Notes under the pieces: model-generated
The model's database searches: none
Told to the model about the DNA's origin: nothing
What the model saw: only the letters and a program-made list of their open reading frames with translations
Position numbers and translations under genes: made by a program
Assembly (NCBI RefSeq): GCF_000969985.1
Contig: NZ_CP009526.1
Span: 868,001-932,000 of the forward strand
Length of the DNA: 64,000 nucleotides
Direction of reading: 5' to 3'
DNA from: Methanosarcina barkeri str. Wiesmoor
GTDB lineage: Archaea > Halobacteriota > Methanosarcinia > Methanosarcinales > Methanosarcinaceae
In this document: positions 88-14,450 of the stretch, piece after piece
Position numbering within the stretch: position 1 is the stretch's first letter
Layout: each line of letters opens with the position of its first letter

Positions 88-636
88 TCAGGTTTTAAGT
101 TCTCCTACATCTTCAAGTTTTTTGATAACCCTTGCAGGATAACCCAGGGCAAGACTATTTGGAGAGATATTACGGCTAACTACGGATCCAATACCTATTA
201 TTGAGTTATCCCCGATTTCAACACCCTGCGTGATTATACATCCTGGATTTACAGAGACTCCACGTCCTATTTTTATGGGAGCCATAGTTCTCGGATATGC
301 CTGTCTTGTAGTCAAACTTCCTCTCGTATGTGCAGATAATATGCATTTATCGCCAATTTCCGAGTAATCCCCTATCGTAATTAATTCAGGGTGTATCCTG
401 TCAAAAACCACATCATAGCCGACATATACATTCTCCCCGATATTTACACCCCGCATTCTGTGCAATTTAGCTCTCCAGGAAGGAACTGGAGCGCTTGAAG
501 CAAGCCGTTCTAGAATCCAATTTTTAAAATATTTAATGCCAAAAAGAAGTTTATTACTGTGATAATGGTCCGCAATTTCGCAAAAGGTTACCTGATCTCT
601 ATTAGACACTACAGCAGTCGTACGAATACCCCCCAT
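88..636 (-). CDS. Hexapeptide-repeat (LbH) acyltransferase
   Basis: This is a 182-residue protein of the maltose/galactoside O-acetyltransferase type. From about residue 66 to 170 it has the left-handed beta-helix hexapeptide pattern (IGENVYVG, IGDYSEIGDKC, IKIGRGVSVNPG, VEIGDNSIIGIGSVV), and it ends with the usual NSLALGYPARVIKK cap. A histidine in SAHTRG is in the position of the family's catalytic base. It probably transfers an acetyl or other acyl group from CoA, or possibly from the nearby acyl carrier protein, to a hydroxyl or amino group. It is the last gene of the minus-strand carrier-protein cluster, 344 bases beyond the DUF362 gene, so membership in the same transcript is uncertain. 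The N-terminal 60 residues are not typical hexapeptide repeat. Confidence 0.8.
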   Translation of the reverse strand: MGGIRTTAVVSNRDQVTFCEIADHYHSNKLLFGIKYFKNWILERLASSAPVPSWRAKLHRMRGVNIGENVYVGYDVVFDRIHPELITIGDYSEIGDKCILSAHTRGSLTTRQAYPRTMAPIKIGRGVSVNPGCIITQGVEIGDNSIIGIGSVVSRNISPNSLALGYPARVIKKLEDVGELKT

Positions 637-2314: not shown

Positions 2315-3307
2315 TTACCTGTTAATGTAGCAAACAGGCGGCGCGGCTCGTATATATTCTGTAGTATCTTTTATTCTACTGATGTGCCTCTGGACTTTTT
2401 CTATTGTCTCTCTGGGCAGACCGGTGTTCTTTTCAATTACTTGCAGGGGCAACTGGTGCTCCTGGGCATACAGTAGCTGATCCATTATCTGAATCGGCAT
2501 ACGCCAGTAGAATTCCTCATCAGTTGTGTAATGGTTCCAGGTATCAGCACTTGGAGGGCGTTTTATTATCTCTTCGTTAACATTGAGCAGCTTCCCCAGA
2601 GCATAAACCTGGACTTTGTAGCAGTCTGACAGAGGTTCTAGATCTACGCCCCCATCTCCATATTTCACAAACTGGCCAAGGACCATTTCGGTCTTGTTGG
2701 TCGTACCGCAAACTGCGTAATTCATCGTTTCAGCACACATATATTGAACGAGCATTCTGGATCTCTGTTTAACACCCTGCAATCCTATCAATTCCAGATA
2801 GTCGTTTGCTTTTAACCTGTGTCTTGCGACGATTTCACCATTTTTTACCAGGTGTATATAAGGAACATTTAGCAGGCCAGTGTTAAGGAAATCAGGCAGT
2901 GCCAGCGACGTTTTATGTATTCTGGCATCATACTCAGGGCAGGTTCTCTTTATAATCTGTTCTTTCTTATCATAGATATTAAGCGATCTCAAGATTGGAG
3001 AGATAGGCACTTCTTCATACGACACACCAAGGCTTTCACAGATCTCCGCTCCCAAGGCCTTGCTGGAAGGGGCAGATTCCTCTTCAGGAAGGAGAAGTCC
3101 ATATACTTTTTCTTTTCCGAGTTCCTGTACACATAGTGTAAGTATTACGGCTGAGTCAATTCCTCCCGAAACCCCTATAACAACTCCTTTTTTCTTAAAA
3201 CTCGCTACCTGGTCTCTAATAAAACCCCTGAGCTTTAAAGCTATATTCCCAATATTTCCATTGAGTTCTTCTATTATATTTATGCTCACTTCTTCTGCGA
3301 TTTGCAT
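2315..3307 (-). CDS. nadE: NAD synthetase-like PP-loop ATP pyrophosphatase
   Basis: This 330-residue protein has the NadE PP-loop (SGGIDSA near residue 46) and the later NAD synthetase signature region CGTTNKTEMVLGQFVKYGDGGVDLEPL. The family makes NAD from deamido-NAD by adenylating a carboxylate and attacking it with ammonia. It has no glutaminase domain, so it would use free ammonia or a partner. It carries an insertion around residues 95-165 and a C-terminal extension, making it longer than the typical 250-280-residue archaeal NadE. It sits inside an ACP/adenylation cluster beside a second PP-loop enzyme. It may therefore be a dedicated amide-forming enzyme rather than the housekeeping NAD synthetase; this is inference, and which is true depends on whether another nadE exists in the genome. 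Confidence 0.8.
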   Translation of the reverse strand: MQIAEEVSINIIEELNGNIGNIALKLRGFIRDQVASFKKKGVVIGVSGGIDSAVILTLCVQELGKEKVYGLLLPEEESAPSSKALGAEICESLGVSYEEVPISPILRSLNIYDKKEQIIKRTCPEYDARIHKTSLALPDFLNTGLLNVPYIHLVKNGEIVARHRLKANDYLELIGLQGVKQRSRMLVQYMCAETMNYAVCGTTNKTEMVLGQFVKYGDGGVDLEPLSDCYKVQVYALGKLLNVNEEIIKRPPSADTWNHYTTDEEFYWRMPIQIMDQLLYAQEHQLPLQVIEKNTGLPRETIEKVQRHISRIKDTTEYIRAAPPVCYINR

Positions 3308-3364
3308 AATATTGCCCCCTTAAATAATCAGATTTTAGAATTAGGCTGTCCAATGTCCAAATTT

Positions 3365-3406
3365 TACTGTTCCAATTATACTGTTCCAATTATACTGTTC
3401 AAATTA
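3365..3406. repeat. 14-bp tandem repeat, 3 copies
   Basis: The unit TACTGTTCCAATTA begins at 3365, 3379 and 3393, the third copy with a substitution (TTCAAATTA). It lies in the 129-base gap between the NadE-like gene and the upstream PP-loop gene. Confidence 0.8.
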
Positions 3407-3436
3407 ACTACTGTAATTAAACTCTTTATCTTAAAA

Positions 3437-4474
3437 TCAAATTTTAGCTAGTATTTTTTGTGATTTCTTTACTTTCAGTTTAAACTTTCTTGCAGCCTCT
3501 TCTATCAATGGCTGTGACAATTCCTGATTAATTTTTTTAAGTCCTTCTTCTCTTGACATTTCTCCGCTTCGGACAAGCCCTGCTACGTCAAAGGCATATG
3601 GATGAAACCCGTATTTCTCCAGGTGGTTGTAACAGGCAAAGGAATTCAATGTACAGTTGGTTGAATTGCTGTCATTGATTCCCGGAAGTTCCCACCCGAT
3701 TTCCAGCAGTGTCTCAAGCACTTTGTCTTCACTGTAATCCCAGAGACATAGAGGATGTAGAATGCTCGGAACGTTCTCATCTATGTTCTCAAGAACTTCT
3801 TTTTTCAGGAGGAAAATTTCGTCCTTATCCTCGATGTCTATTTTCTGAAGCTGTTTCTCAAATAAGCTTCTGGACCACTGGATAAAATTGACTGACAGGT
3901 TGATTATGGGATTAGGAGACTGTCCAGCTGTAAAGGCAAATACGATGAAAGGTGCTTTTTGAAGAATGGCCTGCTCTATCAGCTTCTGTTTAATGATAGT
4001 GATGCAAATGTTGCATATGTCACTGGCTCGATATTTGGCGAATCTTGGAAATGCATCATATGACTCTGCAGCTTTTCGGAATGTATCATATAAAATTTCC
4101 TTTTCCATTGTCAACTGGAAATAATCGCATCCTGTGATCTCGCACATTTTTTTTGCATTCATTATTGCGTTTTCTGAAATGAACCCGTTATCGAACTGAA
4201 CAGCCAGTACCTTAAGGAAAGGATAGTCTTTTTTGAGCTTGTAGAGCGTGTACGACGAATCTTTCCCACCTGAAAGTGCATAAATTATATCGTAGTTACC
4301 CTTTCCCCTGTACTGCTCAAAAAGTTTTTCAATTCTGGTCAGGTATTCATTTTTTTCCTGTGGACTAAGTGGGGTATATGTCTCACAAAAGTGACAGAGG
4401 CCAGTTTTTTCATTAATTTGTATACCTGGAATCTCGGAATCCAGAATACACTTTTTACACACTAGCTTTGACAT
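3437..4474 (-). CDS. PP-loop ATPase of the N-acetyl sugar amidotransferase / AANH type
   Basis: The 345-residue protein opens with a cysteine zinc-binding pattern (CKKC near residue 6, CHFC near residue 28), then the PP-loop SGGKDSS near residue 69, and a further CNIC motif. This layout matches WbpG/PseA-like amidotransferases and related adenine-nucleotide alpha-hydrolases, which adenylate a carbonyl or carboxyl and add nitrogen or sulfur. The start overlaps the end of the adenylating-enzyme gene by 20 bases, so the two are translationally coupled. With an ACP in the same operon, the acceptor could be a carrier-bound acyl group; PP-loop enzymes of this superfamily are known to install thioamides in closthioamide biosynthesis. 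A sugar amidotransferase role is the main alternative. Confidence 0.8.
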   Translation of the reverse strand: MSKLVCKKCILDSEIPGIQINEKTGLCHFCETYTPLSPQEKNEYLTRIEKLFEQYRGKGNYDIIYALSGGKDSSYTLYKLKKDYPFLKVLAVQFDNGFISENAIMNAKKMCEITGCDYFQLTMEKEILYDTFRKAAESYDAFPRFAKYRASDICNICITIIKQKLIEQAILQKAPFIVFAFTAGQSPNPIINLSVNFIQWSRSLFEKQLQKIDIEDKDEIFLLKKEVLENIDENVPSILHPLCLWDYSEDKVLETLLEIGWELPGINDSNSTNCTLNSFACYNHLEKYGFHPYAFDVAGLVRSGEMSREEGLKKINQELSQPLIEEAARKFKLKVKKSQKILAKI

Positions 4475-5933
4475 GTTGGTACTCCTCTATAATGGATCGG
4501 TTGGATATTTTTCCATTCTCGCTTATGGGAAGGTGATCAATGAATAGTATTTCTCTTGGACGCAGGTATCCTGGCAGGCTTTTTCGACAGAATGCATACA
4601 ACTTTTCAATTTCTGTTCCTTTTGCAGGTATGACCATGAGGCTAATTGCGGTTCCCATAAGTTCATGGTGCACAGGTACGACAAAAACCCTGGATACTTC
4701 GTTATTTTCCTCTATGCTTTTCTCAATTTCTCTTGGGTTAACACGATGATCACCGATTTTTATAAGGTCATCCTTGCGTCCCAGCAGTTTGATATATCCG
4801 TTGGGTAATTTCTGTGCAAGATCACCGGTATGCAGCCATCCATCTATAATTTTCATCCCAGTGGCAATTTCATCATCGAGGTAACCCAGCATAATGTTGT
4901 CTCCGGTAGCAACCAGTTCACCCGTAATATTAGGTTTTGCTGGTCTGTACTCGGAATCAAAGACATCCAGTATAACCCCTGGAATTGCTTTTCCTATAGT
5001 GTCAACGAGCTCATTCACATCTTCTGCTGGCAGATAAGCAAGTCTTGCCGTAGCTTCAGTTTGCCCGTACATCGGTAGAATCTCCAGATCTGGAGCTAAT
5101 TCCCTTATGTCGTTTACAATATCCCGATCCATTTCTCCACCTGCTGATGCAGCGGTTCTGACTCTTGAGAAATCCTTTTTGAATCTATCCGGATATCGAA
5201 GGAGTATACGATAGGTACTGGGTACCCCATAGAATATGGATATGTCTGATCCTATAAGGTTGAAAATAGAGTCTATGAAATTCATATTTCCAATCCTGAC
5301 TGAGCTGCCAGCTACCAGATGGGAGTTAATTATGGAATTCCCAAAAGCGTGATGTGGGGATATCACCAGTGCTCCTTTATCTCTGGAAGTTATCCTGAGT
5401 ACCTTTATTATTGACTCTGCGTTTGCTACCAGATTTCTGTTACTTAACATTACACCTTTTGGGGTGCCTGTCGTGCCTGAAGTGTAAAGGACGAGCTGTA
5501 GTTGTGGATTATTCACTTCTGTTTCAATCTTCTTACGCAAAAACTCTCCAGAAGTATTGCTGGAAATAATTACTACAGTTCCAAAACGCTCAAAAAAGTC
5601 CTCTCCAAATCTTGAGTATTGTGTATCGGTTACGATGATATTGTTGACATGGGCGGCATCAAGGATTTTCTCAATACTGAATTTAGGAAATTCTATTGGT
5701 AGAGGAATTGCGATATTCGCAGATCGATATACTGCCATGAGCACTTTCACATACAGCATGCCTGATTCTGCCAGTATTGAAAATCGGCAGTGGTTAAAAT
5801 CCATTAAAAGTGAAGCAATTGTGTTTATATCATTGTCAAGGCAGCTATAGGAAATTGAACTCTTTCCCTCTTCCAGGGCAATGCTTTGAGGAGTTTTTCT
5901 GGCGTACTCAGTGATATACGCATCAATTCGCAT
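4455..5933 (-). CDS. Stand-alone acyl/aminoacyl adenylating enzyme (AMP-binding, ANL family)
   Basis: All ANL core motifs are present in this 492-residue protein: the phosphate loop YTSGTTGTPKG near residue 150, YGQTEA near 290, the GWLHTGD aspartate near 370, GRKDDLIKIGDHRVNPREIE in the hinge region, and the C-terminal catalytic lysine in ENGKIS near 475. It activates a carboxylic acid as an adenylate and loads it on a thiol. Only 6 bases separate it from the acyl carrier protein gene, so the carrier protein is the likely acceptor rather than CoA. It lacks condensation or thioesterase domains, so this is a discrete A-type enzyme and not a modular NRPS. The substrate cannot be read with confidence from the sequence. 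Confidence 0.9.
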   Translation of the reverse strand: MRIDAYITEYARKTPQSIALEEGKSSISYSCLDNDINTIASLLMDFNHCRFSILAESGMLYVKVLMAVYRSANIAIPLPIEFPKFSIEKILDAAHVNNIIVTDTQYSRFGEDFFERFGTVVIISSNTSGEFLRKKIETEVNNPQLQLVLYTSGTTGTPKGVMLSNRNLVANAESIIKVLRITSRDKGALVISPHHAFGNSIINSHLVAGSSVRIGNMNFIDSIFNLIGSDISIFYGVPSTYRILLRYPDRFKKDFSRVRTAASAGGEMDRDIVNDIRELAPDLEILPMYGQTEATARLAYLPAEDVNELVDTIGKAIPGVILDVFDSEYRPAKPNITGELVATGDNIMLGYLDDEIATGMKIIDGWLHTGDLAQKLPNGYIKLLGRKDDLIKIGDHRVNPREIEKSIEENNEVSRVFVVPVHHELMGTAISLMVIPAKGTEIEKLYAFCRKSLPGYLRPREILFIDHLPISENGKISNRSIIEEYQHVKASV

Positions 5934-5939
5934 GCCTTT

Positions 5940-6185
5940 TCACTTCGCCAGCGTGGTAATCATATTCGTGATTCCCTGCAACGAATCAAAGTTTTCCGGT
6001 GTTAGCATATCTTCAGGAATCTCTATATAATATTTCTCGCAAATGTAGTCCATAAGTTCAAGCAGACCAATGGAATCTATAATGCCGTTTTGAGTGAGAG
6101 AATCATCATCTTTCAAGCTGCTGGTACTATCCATAAAAGAATTAGCTTTTAAGTAATCGACTATATCATTCTTTATTTGTTCCAT
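5940..6185 (-). CDS. Acyl/peptidyl carrier protein
   Basis: The 81-residue acidic helical protein carries the phosphopantetheine attachment motif DSIG, with Ser38 as the modified residue (context NGIIDSIGLLELM), followed by the usual helix III region. The ATG is preceded by a G-rich Shine-Dalgarno stretch about 10 bases upstream. It is the first gene of the operon that continues through the adenylating enzyme (6-base gap). A phosphopantetheinyl transferase gene lies just upstream on the same strand, which explains how it would become holo-protein. Archaea generally do not use ACP for fatty acid synthesis, so this one probably serves a special pathway. Confidence 0.92.
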   Translation of the reverse strand: MEQIKNDIVDYLKANSFMDSTSSLKDDDSLTQNGIIDSIGLLELMDYICEKYYIEIPEDMLTPENFDSLQGITNMITTLAK

Positions 6186-6521: not shown

Positions 6522-7217
6522 TCAGTCCCAGTTGCAGTCGATTTTTTGAAGACGATTTATACCAATGATATGCGATTCCGAACGGGTTACAATGGAAAAT
6601 AAATATTTGTTATCTAGAATATAAGTTGAATGATTGACACTGTTAAGATCCAGTTCTCTATTAAAAATAAGACACATTTTTTTGTTTGAAAACTTGGAAT
6701 AGGCTTCTTTTAAAGTCCATGTTTTTAAAATATCGGTTTCATCTACAGTTTCGTCCATTAGTGAAGTTTTCTTATACAGGTTTTTAAAATTACTTTTAAG
6801 ATCCAGCTTTCTCGTAAGTTCAATATCAATACCAACATCAACCTTTGAGATTGCAAGGGCTGCAAGGCGTTCAGTATAGGATATACAAATGCATAGTTCA
6901 TTGTGATTAAGGATGCAGACCTTTCCATATTCGTCTTTGTATGTGGATATTTCGGAAGCGGATTGCTCATTAGCAACTTTGCATGTGATGTGTTTTAAAA
7001 CCGTTCTGGAGACAATATATCTTTTCTTAAAGTGACTTGTCTTCAACCTCTTGAGATATTCCAGTTCTATTCTGCTGAGGTAACTTGTATTAAATGTATC
7101 ATAATTATCCAGGTCAACAAGAAAAACGAGAACATCGCTCTGTTGCCACAGGTATGGGATGTGTCCAAGAGAAACGGGAAAGGGCAACTTTATATATTTG
7201 TTGTACATGTAGTCCAC
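6522..7217 (-). CDS. 4'-phosphopantetheinyl transferase, Sfp type
   Basis: The 231-residue protein has the two Sfp-family signatures: VGIDIELTRK near residue 126, with the Mg-binding Asp and Glu, and KTWTLKEAYSKF near residue 165 (the W-x-x-KEA motif). It would transfer phosphopantetheine from CoA to Ser38 of the neighbouring carrier protein. The first start is GTG, with an in-frame ATG three codons later; either could be used. It lies 336 bases upstream of the ACP operon and may have its own promoter. The DNA is very AT-rich. Sfp-type enzymes occur only sporadically in archaea, which supports a horizontally acquired pathway. Confidence 0.88.
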   Translation of the reverse strand: MDYMYNKYIKLPFPVSLGHIPYLWQQSDVLVFLVDLDNYDTFNTSYLSRIELEYLKRLKTSHFKKRYIVSRTVLKHITCKVANEQSASEISTYKDEYGKVCILNHNELCICISYTERLAALAISKVDVGIDIELTRKLDLKSNFKNLYKKTSLMDETVDETDILKTWTLKEAYSKFSNKKMCLIFNRELDLNSVNHSTYILDNKYLFSIVTRSESHIIGINRLQKIDCNWD

Positions 7218-13262: not shown

Positions 13263-14450
13263 ATGGATTCAAAATATGTTATCCTGCACAGCAGTGAGAT
13301 ATTACCACCTTCACGGGGAGATATAGGAAGAGCACGCCGAGCAGAAGTATTCCCCTTGGAAGCGGCCCAACCAATCGTCAAGTTAGAGTACGCCGAACTT
13401 ACCAAGCGGGAGAGCAATGATCTGCGCAGAGATCCCAGAACACTTGCCATTGCCAAACCTATGCCAATGAAACTGATTGCACCGGTTGGTAGCCTTGATG
13501 CACCAACAGCTACAAAATCCTGGGGAATCGACGCAGTACGTGCATCGGAATCGCCATTTGATGGAACCGGTGTCACTGTAGCTGTGCTAGATACTGGAAT
13601 CGATCCAAATCACCCAGCATTTAAAGGCATGAAGCTGGTTCAGAAGAACTTCACTACGGAAATCGATAATGATATTCATGGGCATGGCACGCATTGTGCA
13701 GGGACCATTTTTGGCCAGGATGTCAATGGTGTCCGCATCGGCATCGCTAGAAAAATTAAATGTGCCCTAATTGGCAAGGTGCTGGGCAAAGAAGGAGGTT
13801 CCTCAGACACGATCGCCAAGGCCATCCAGTGGGCAGTCCAGGAAGGCGCAAATGTCATTTCCATGTCCCTAGGTATTGATTTTCCGGGCTATGTAGATTG
13901 GCTGGTTCATGACCAAGGCATGAATATTAACCCAGCAACATCCCAGGCGCTGGAAGAGTATCGTGCAAACGTCAACCTGTTCACCGAGTTAGTGCGCGTC
14001 GTGGCAGCACATGGGGCATTTGGGCAATCTGCAATCATCGTTGCGGCCAGCGGTAACGAAAGCAATCGGCCTAAATACGAAATTGCAGTCTCCCCTCCCG
14101 CTGCCGCCACAGGCATCGTTGCCGTTGGCGCACTGAATAAATCAGGCAAGGGCTTTAACGTTGCCGAATTTTCAAATAATCAGGTGAACATTGCCGCCCC
14201 TGGCGTTAACATCATCTCTGCTAAAGCAGGCACGAGTGGCCTTATCAGTATGAGTGGGACCAGCATGGCGACACCTCACGCTGCGGGTATTGCTGCCCTA
14301 TGGGCACAGCGTCAACTGAAATTGACCGGGAGGATAAATAACGTGAGCTTGATGGCGCAACTTATTGCTAGTGGCACCTTTGACTCTCTAGTCCCAGGCA
14401 GCGAAGAGGATGATGTGGGTACAGGCATCATTCAGGCACCATTGAAGTGA
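13263..14450 (+). CDS. Subtilisin-like serine protease (S8)
   Basis: The 395-residue protein has the complete catalytic triad of family S8: Asp in VAVLDTGIDPNHP near residue 110, His in HGHGTHCAGTIFG near residue 141, and Ser in SGTSMATPHAAGIAAL near residue 340. The oxyanion-hole Asn is in AASGNESN. There is no signal peptide, and the first 85 residues do not look like a standard propeptide, so it is probably intracellular or exported by an unusual route. A strong Shine-Dalgarno (AGGAGGG) precedes the ATG. The gene is visibly more GC-rich than its flanks and is followed at once by a transposase remnant, which suggests transfer from bacteria. Confidence 0.93.
   Translation: MDSKYVILHSSEILPPSRGDIGRARRAEVFPLEAAQPIVKLEYAELTKRESNDLRRDPRTLAIAKPMPMKLIAPVGSLDAPTATKSWGIDAVRASESPFDGTGVTVAVLDTGIDPNHPAFKGMKLVQKNFTTEIDNDIHGHGTHCAGTIFGQDVNGVRIGIARKIKCALIGKVLGKEGGSSDTIAKAIQWAVQEGANVISMSLGIDFPGYVDWLVHDQGMNINPATSQALEEYRANVNLFTELVRVVAAHGAFGQSAIIVAASGNESNRPKYEIAVSPPAAATGIVAVGALNKSGKGFNVAEFSNNQVNIAAPGVNIISAKAGTSGLISMSGTSMATPHAAGIAALWAQRQLKLTGRINNVSLMAQLIASGTFDSLVPGSEEDDVGTGIIQAPLK

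Follow-up and report, generated by a model that had tools for sequence, protein, structure and literature searches.

The Gene Cluster

The window, which is the whole stretch of 64,000 nucleotides that was analysed, comes from contig C2 of a Methanosarcina barkeri genome of 4.9 Mb and 99.95% completeness. Seven genes on its minus strand form one cluster, as delineated from the list of open reading frames together with Pfam and NCBIfam scans. In window coordinates, these are:

6522..7217, minus strand: 4'-phosphopantetheinyl transferase (PPTase), Sfp-like; ACPS Pfam model, 21.4 bits (cut-off 25)
5940..6185, minus strand: acyl carrier protein (ACP), 81 aa; PF00550, 21.7 bits (cut-off 20.8)
4455..5933, minus strand: AMP-forming acyl ligase, 492 aa; PF00501, 169.9 bits, and PF13193, 45.1 bits
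3437..4474, minus strand: AANH/WbuX-like PP-loop ATPase, 345 aa; SGGKDSS, N-terminal tetracysteine and C154/C157/C274 triad
2315..3307, minus strand: putative NadE-like amide synthetase, 330 aa, PRK00876 subfamily; NF002048, 475 bits
981..2120, minus strand: accessory DUF362 protein with a 4Fe-4S ferredoxin domain; PF04015, 207 bits, and Fer4
88..636, minus strand: accessory hexapeptide-repeat acyl/acetyltransferase; PF00132, 40.1 bits

The ACP, ligase and AANH genes are tightly packed, with a gap of 6 bases between the first two and an overlap of 20 bases between the ligase and AANH genes. A sequence-only reading of this DNA had singled out the two adjacent PP-loop genes and proposed that their products form an amide or thioamide on a carrier. 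Both open reading frames are intact, and both carry the motifs on which that proposal was built, namely SGGIDSA in the NadE-like protein and SGGKDSS with CKKC and CHFC in the AANH protein. Elsewhere in the window, an open reading frame on the plus strand (13263-14450) was recognised from its motifs, by eye, as a subtilisin-like serine protease.

The carrier parts of the cluster were examined both by profile and by eye. The ACP has the attachment motif GIIDSIG, and the PPTase has the motifs VGIDIE and WTLKEAYSK. At E 0.1, the cluster ACP is the sole match to PF00550 in the genome, and the cluster PPTase, with a score below the curated cut-off, is the sole match to PF01648; as these scores lie close to the cut-offs, diverged carrier proteins or PPTases in the genome could be missed. 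Among four control archaea, PF00550 matched in M. acetivorans only, and among the 14 controls used for PF01648 no archaeon was matched, not even M. acetivorans, so that the latter model may detect such PPTases poorly and another PPTase gene may have escaped it. The position of the PPTase gene is conserved among relatives. By eye, the A4 region of the ligase (PHHAFG) looks like that of acyl-CoA ligases rather than that of amino-acid domains.

A NAD Synthetase Relative with a Retooled Part

The NadE-like protein scores 475 bits against a cut-off of 313 for NCBIfam NF002048/PRK00876, and its closest named relatives found are from Methanosarcina. The earlier remarks that it is longer than usual and has no glutaminase domain were both borne out: it has 330 aa versus an open frame of 270 aa for the canonical NadE of the same genome, and NAD_synthase is the only domain that Pfam finds in it at E 0.01. 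The predicted structure has the NAD synthetase fold (2e18, Z 25.3, rmsd 2.6, 242 aligned residues). The best of five models had a mean pLDDT of 78.5 for the NadE-like protein and 78.1 for the AANH protein, the weakest 48.9 and 52.1, and given this modest confidence the structures were used for fold only.

The search for a second, canonical nadE that the sequence-only reading had suggested was successful. It lies at C2:3120567-3121295 (299.5 bits), which rules out the alternative that the protein of the cluster is simply the housekeeping NAD synthetase of this genome. Differences from canonical NadE were then sought residue by residue, with 25 canonical NadEs (five at hand and 20 fetched) set against 48 PRK00876 rows, some genomes being represented by more than one locus; residue numbers are those of the genome's own canonical NadE. 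The SGGxDS motif is present in 47/47 PRK00876 rows with letters at that place, R125, R127, T145, E150, D161, D165, K174 and D217 are kept in every row with a letter there, and K158 is retained in 45/48. In contrast, seven residues found in all 25 canonical NadEs (T157, K193, L199, D205, E206, G210 and K256) occur in none of the 48 rows, and H255, likewise present in 25/25 canonical proteins, occurs in 2/48. The spacing differs as well: the distance from the PP loop to the RxR motif is 74–86 residues in 24 of the 25 canonical NadEs (one not measured) versus 128–130 in 46 of the 48 PRK00876 rows (one has 108, one was not measured), so that those 46 carry some 50 extra residues between the two motifs. 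The residues lost are ones that we take to serve deamido-NAD binding in canonical NadE. With the core residues kept and other fixed residues lost, the pattern points to an amidation core that was retained while another part of the protein was retooled.

A second NadE-like family was seen in other genomes of the phylum (L098:8187-9158 and L099:6992-7957), about 31–32% identical and likewise without the canonical HKR motif of NadE; matches to an ACP, ligase or AANH protein were not obtained within 15–17 kb around this paralogue.

Occurrence and Linkage in Archaea

Within the genus (30 genomes, the window's own included), the AANH protein has 27 near-full matches at E 1e-180 or better; it is in pieces in two further genomes (G020 and G024) and absent from one (G018). 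The NadE-like and AANH genes adjoin in the relatives examined, which argues that their pairing is not due to chance. Over 392 genomes drawn from the phylum, which we take to be Halobacteriota in GTDB terms, the two proteins occur in the same 33 genomes and neither is found in the other 359, when lists obtained at 313 bits (NadE-like) and E 1e-25 (AANH) are compared by eye. The distribution is patchy, as in one genus (g5) both proteins are present in only one of 19 genomes (G390), and in another (g3) one genome (G263) is without both.

Linkage extends to the carrier parts. The NadE-like gene was found at 38 archaeal loci, some of which are not independent; an AANH gene is present in 37 of them, a ligase gene in 35 and an ACP gene in 33. 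Where a gene is missing, a contig ends within or next to the cluster, except in L097, where no ligase was found within 11 kb. This count excludes L098 and L099, with their different NadE-like paralogue, and L111 (G002:C1:3965000-3982000), a duplicate of the cluster that has decayed and in which the ligase is matched at its two ends only and the NadE-like gene is missing. A DUF362 protein with at least 300 aligned residues accompanies the cluster in 17 of 21 loci (L029-L049), and the hexapeptide transferase gene lies downstream of the DUF362 gene in those of them that have both. Three loci without a DUF362 match (L044, L101 and L105) have a gene for a FabG-like reductase directly downstream of the NadE-like gene, with a domain scan for L044 only.

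In a second archaeal phylum, that of the Pacearchaeota, only 2/279 genomes pass the PRK00876 cut-off. One Pacearchaeote (L051) has the ligase and AANH as a single open reading frame of 826 aa next to an ACP gene, with PPTase, hexapeptide transferase and NadE-like genes nearby; neither the ACP nor the PPTase of this locus reaches the Pfam cut-off. The ligase–AANH fusion gave no match at 1e-10 in the second Pacearchaeote (G060, an assembly of about 700 kb). In neither genome was there another NadE-family protein beyond one match of 19.6 bits, and a role in NAD synthesis is therefore possible there.

AANH relatives occur with carrier machinery in bacteria also. In a Roseovarius non-ribosomal peptide synthetase (NRPS), the AANH stretch is followed directly by the C-terminal part, itself truncated, of an adenylation domain (positions 23–76 of the profile), and the adenylation core was recognised, by eye, upstream of the AANH stretch. 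L052:12424-20472 and L054 both encode NRPSs of this type, with AANH as if inserted in the adenylation domain. In Streptomyces NBC_00470, an AANH gene is located near ACP and ketosynthase genes. Gene order, the ligase–AANH fusion, the placement of AANH within the adenylation domain of an NRPS and the exact co-occurrence together support the carrier-linked role that the sequence-only reading had proposed. Judged by gene content and order, the PPTase, ACP, acyl ligase, AANH and NadE-like proteins make up a conserved module.

The AANH Protein: Motifs, Fold and Tree

The best-scoring named family for the AANH protein is WbuX, but at 120 bits it stays below the TIGR03573 cut-off of 203.2. Its N-terminal tetracysteine (C6, C9, C27 and C30) is the CXXC-Xn-CXXC zinc motif of NASAT, the sugar amidotransferase whose structure (8wex) is also the nearest to the model (Z 17.8, rmsd 4.0, 287 aligned). 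NcsA/TtuA are weaker structural matches (Z 11.6 and 11.0), as is ArtA (9lei, Z 10.3, 168 aligned). No relative of the protein was matched in a phage collection at E 1e-5.

In addition, the protein carries C154, C157, C274 and a PP-loop Asp at position 72. The thioamide synthetase of closthioamide biosynthesis, CtaC, has C154, C157, C284 and D77 (PMC6772006), and the spacing of the cysteine triad is similar (154/157/274 here and 154/157/284 in CtaC), a likeness of pattern only, set beside published positions. CtaC resembles the AANH protein as well in being a PP-loop enzyme encoded with a carrier protein; the present cluster differs in having a NadE-like enzyme and one ACP, and no peptide-forming genes were recognised in it.

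The specificity of these residues was assessed in an alignment of 26 rows, comprising 16 carrier-linked proteins, nine proteins classed as sugar-type (five from their annotation as N-acetyl sugar amidotransferase, four from similarity or context) and, from the window's genome, one protein recognised by eye as TtuA/NcsA-like. The (S/T)NC motif is found in 16/16 carrier-linked and 0/9 sugar-type rows. CxxC is present in 15 of the 16 carrier-linked rows, the exception being a Pacearchaeote with SxxC, and it occurs together with a Cys at the third place in three of the nine sugar-type rows, one of which (L148) adjoins hisH and hisF. The triad was consequently dropped as proof of sulfur chemistry; it allows for an Fe-S cluster or sulfur chemistry without proving either. 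In the TtuA/NcsA-like row, the CxxC is aligned with that of the AANH protein, and the third Cys column is not common to the two.

The best tree groups the AANH protein with the NRPS- and ACP-linked AANHs, with weak support (81/66) and several long end branches. An AU test did not reject a tree in which the archaeal clade was held with the sugar-type rows (p-AU 0.2), and joining that clade to the three triad-bearing sugar-type rows was rejected (p 0.0001). The protein does not fall firmly inside the sugar amidotransferases, but the split is weak. As the genome has a canonical NadE elsewhere and the AANH protein does not sit firmly among the sugar amidotransferases, the original idea survives.

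The Alphaproteobacterial Counterpart

The NadE-like protein matched 202 plasmid records, and in 108 of these the match covers 80% or more of the protein. In the nine alphaproteobacterial loci examined from among them, which are not independent (three are from Azospirillum and two from near-identical Mesorhizobium), ACP, ligase and AsnB genes are present in 9/9 and AANH in 0/9. These asnB-acp-ligase-nadE operons of rhizobia, Azospirillum and Shinella are like the archaeal cluster in bringing together an ACP, an acyl ligase and a PRK00876-type protein, and unlike it in having AsnB where the archaea have AANH. AsnB was seen in none of the 38 archaeal loci, and with this distribution AANH and AsnB look like alternative partners. 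The AsnB and ligase of one such locus (L055) resemble XrtA/PEP-CTERM-associated families, with scores below the cut-offs of those families.

With regard to possible TRANSFERASES and products, homologues of one protein, about 370 aa long, are encoded both at six alphaproteobacterial loci (L055, L056, L114, L115, L117 and L119; at a distance of some 11 kb in L114) and at three archaeal ones (L044, L096 and L097), with a best cross-domain E of 3e-8. Pfam found no domain in the two that were scanned (L044 and L117), and the L044 protein had no match in the window's genome at E 1, in a search without a positive control. In the Azospirillum loci, a GNAT protein (by Pfam in L057, the one scanned) takes the place of the 370-aa protein, and its similarity to the 370-aa proteins does not reach significance (E 0.015 at best). 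Genes for sugar dehydrogenases, glycosyltransferases and polysaccharide deacetylases, recognised from annotation, Pfam or by eye, are located near several relatives, hinting at a surface glycan.

A Proposed Carrier-Dependent Pathway and Its Alternatives

The explanation that we favour, and consider somewhat better than an even bet, is a pathway that depends on the carrier: the NadE-like enzyme would turn a carboxylate into an amide and the AANH enzyme would insert nitrogen or sulfur, with the product probably feeding an acyltransferase. The PPTase would arm the ACP, and the ligase would activate a carboxylic acid and load it onto the ACP. The NadE-like enzyme would then adenylate a free carboxylate of the acyl group, on which free ammonia would yield a primary amide. 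AANH would next adenylate the oxygen of that amide (or of a second carboxyl) and insert either sulfur, giving a thioamide, or nitrogen, giving an amidine or nitrile. Finally, an acyltransferase, of the hexapeptide type here and of the GNAT type in Azospirillum, would transfer the completed group to an acceptor, which may be a cell-surface lipid or amino sugar. The chain of steps is drawn from the protein families, and the atom added (nitrogen or sulfur) and the substrate are likewise deduced.

Of the alternatives, the strongest is a sub-case of this pathway, so that its likelihood overlaps with that just given: the carrier chemistry would be purely that of nitrogen, with AANH acting as an AsnB stand-in that makes an amidine, amide or nitrile free of sulfur. 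We put this at a little less than an even chance. It fits the occurrence of AsnB at the place of AANH in all nine alphaproteobacterial loci, the nitrogen insertion described for the NASAT family in the structure paper (PMC10607449, 8WEX), and the nitrile-making AsnB-like and PP-loop enzymes reported in PMC13060819. In the latter, ATP-dependent nitrile formation is attributed to the AsnB-like PesC and to ArtA/QueC, which widens the range of possible products for the cluster; these nitrile synthetases (ArtA/NitB, QueC and PesC) are PP-loop or AsnB-like enzymes that activate an amide, and their likeness to AANH is that of the shared nucleotide-binding fold only. Against it speak the alignment of the AANH CxxC with that of the genome's TtuA/NcsA-like protein and the CtaC-like spacing of the triad. 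At the level of the sequences, then, the AANH/AsnB swap favours nitrogen chemistry and the triad favours sulfur. The thioamide version of the favoured pathway is correspondingly more tentative, and we regard it as possible but distinctly the less probable outcome: in a pathway widespread in Methanosarcina, a NadE-fold carrier-acyl amide synthetase would make the amide, which would be thionated by an Fe-S AANH to give a primary thioamide metabolite or surface group.

In a rather unlikely alternative, the cluster would serve a surface-sugar pathway in which the ligase and ACP make an acyl donor only, the acyltransferase places the acyl group on an amino sugar, and AANH (acting as NASAT does) and the NadE-like enzyme then amidate a sugar-linked group or uronic acid. 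The AANH protein does share its overall fold, N-terminal zinc motif and PP loop with WbuX/WbpG/NASAT, WbuX is its nearest named family, the p-AU of 0.2 leaves room for a sugar-type placement, and the sugar and polysaccharide genes near several relatives fit as well. It differs from that group in its sub-cut-off WbuX score, its (S/T)NC motif and its linkage to ACP and ligase, with the fusion and the NRPS insertion pointing to a carrier. Moreover, hisH is found near sugar enzymes in L120, L121, L148 and L154, and a scan of eight proteins encoded in the cluster or next to it found no HisH, HisF or glycosyltransferase. It is very improbable that the NadE-like protein serves as an additional NAD synthetase, or as an NMN-type synthetase, and lies here by chance, for although it has the fold, PP loop, synthetase-domain core residues and family name of NH3-dependent NadE and is nearly the sole NadE-family match in two Pacearchaeota, its subfamily has lost seven canonical fixed residues in 48/48 rows, its linkage to ACP and ligase is conserved in archaea and bacteria, and the genome has a canonical NadE.

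The carrier pathway is put forward as a supported hypothesis, and because the association reaches across two archaeal phyla and into bacteria, it goes beyond a mere oddity of annotation. No paper on the four-gene combination was found in the open-access library searched; searches there on Methanosarcina with ACP and PPTase gave no such cluster, judged by title and the start of the abstract, and those on thioamides, NadE-like proteins and AANH gave nothing on the cluster among the matches listed. The NAD synthetase family paper PMC3376133 does not mention Methanosarcina or an acyl carrier in its main text. If the favoured pathway is correct, methanogenic archaea would have a dedicated acyl-carrier pathway, a NAD synthetase relative would be at work outside NAD metabolism, and the automatic name 'NAD(+) synthase' would have to be corrected in archaea and rhizobia. 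The exchange of AANH for AsnB between the two kinds of cluster provides a natural comparison of how PP-loop enzymes choose nitrogen or sulfur, and if sulfur is the atom added, carrier-bound thioamide synthesis would extend to archaea.

Further AANH Proteins

Some minor observations concern AANH proteins beyond the cluster. Three genomes (G014, G015 and G021) have AANH in two or three copies. The window's genome encodes a second WbuX-like protein (L122:4817-5968, G000:C2 about 977816-978967), which has CxxC and, at the third position of the triad, a Cys; by eye, neither hisH nor hisF was recognised among its neighbouring open reading frames. A Streptomyces plasmid gene annotated as hypothetical (L149:7704-10654) encodes an AANH protein with CWPC and STNC and lies near ACP and ketosynthase genes; this locus is possibly a new carrier-linked AANH cluster.
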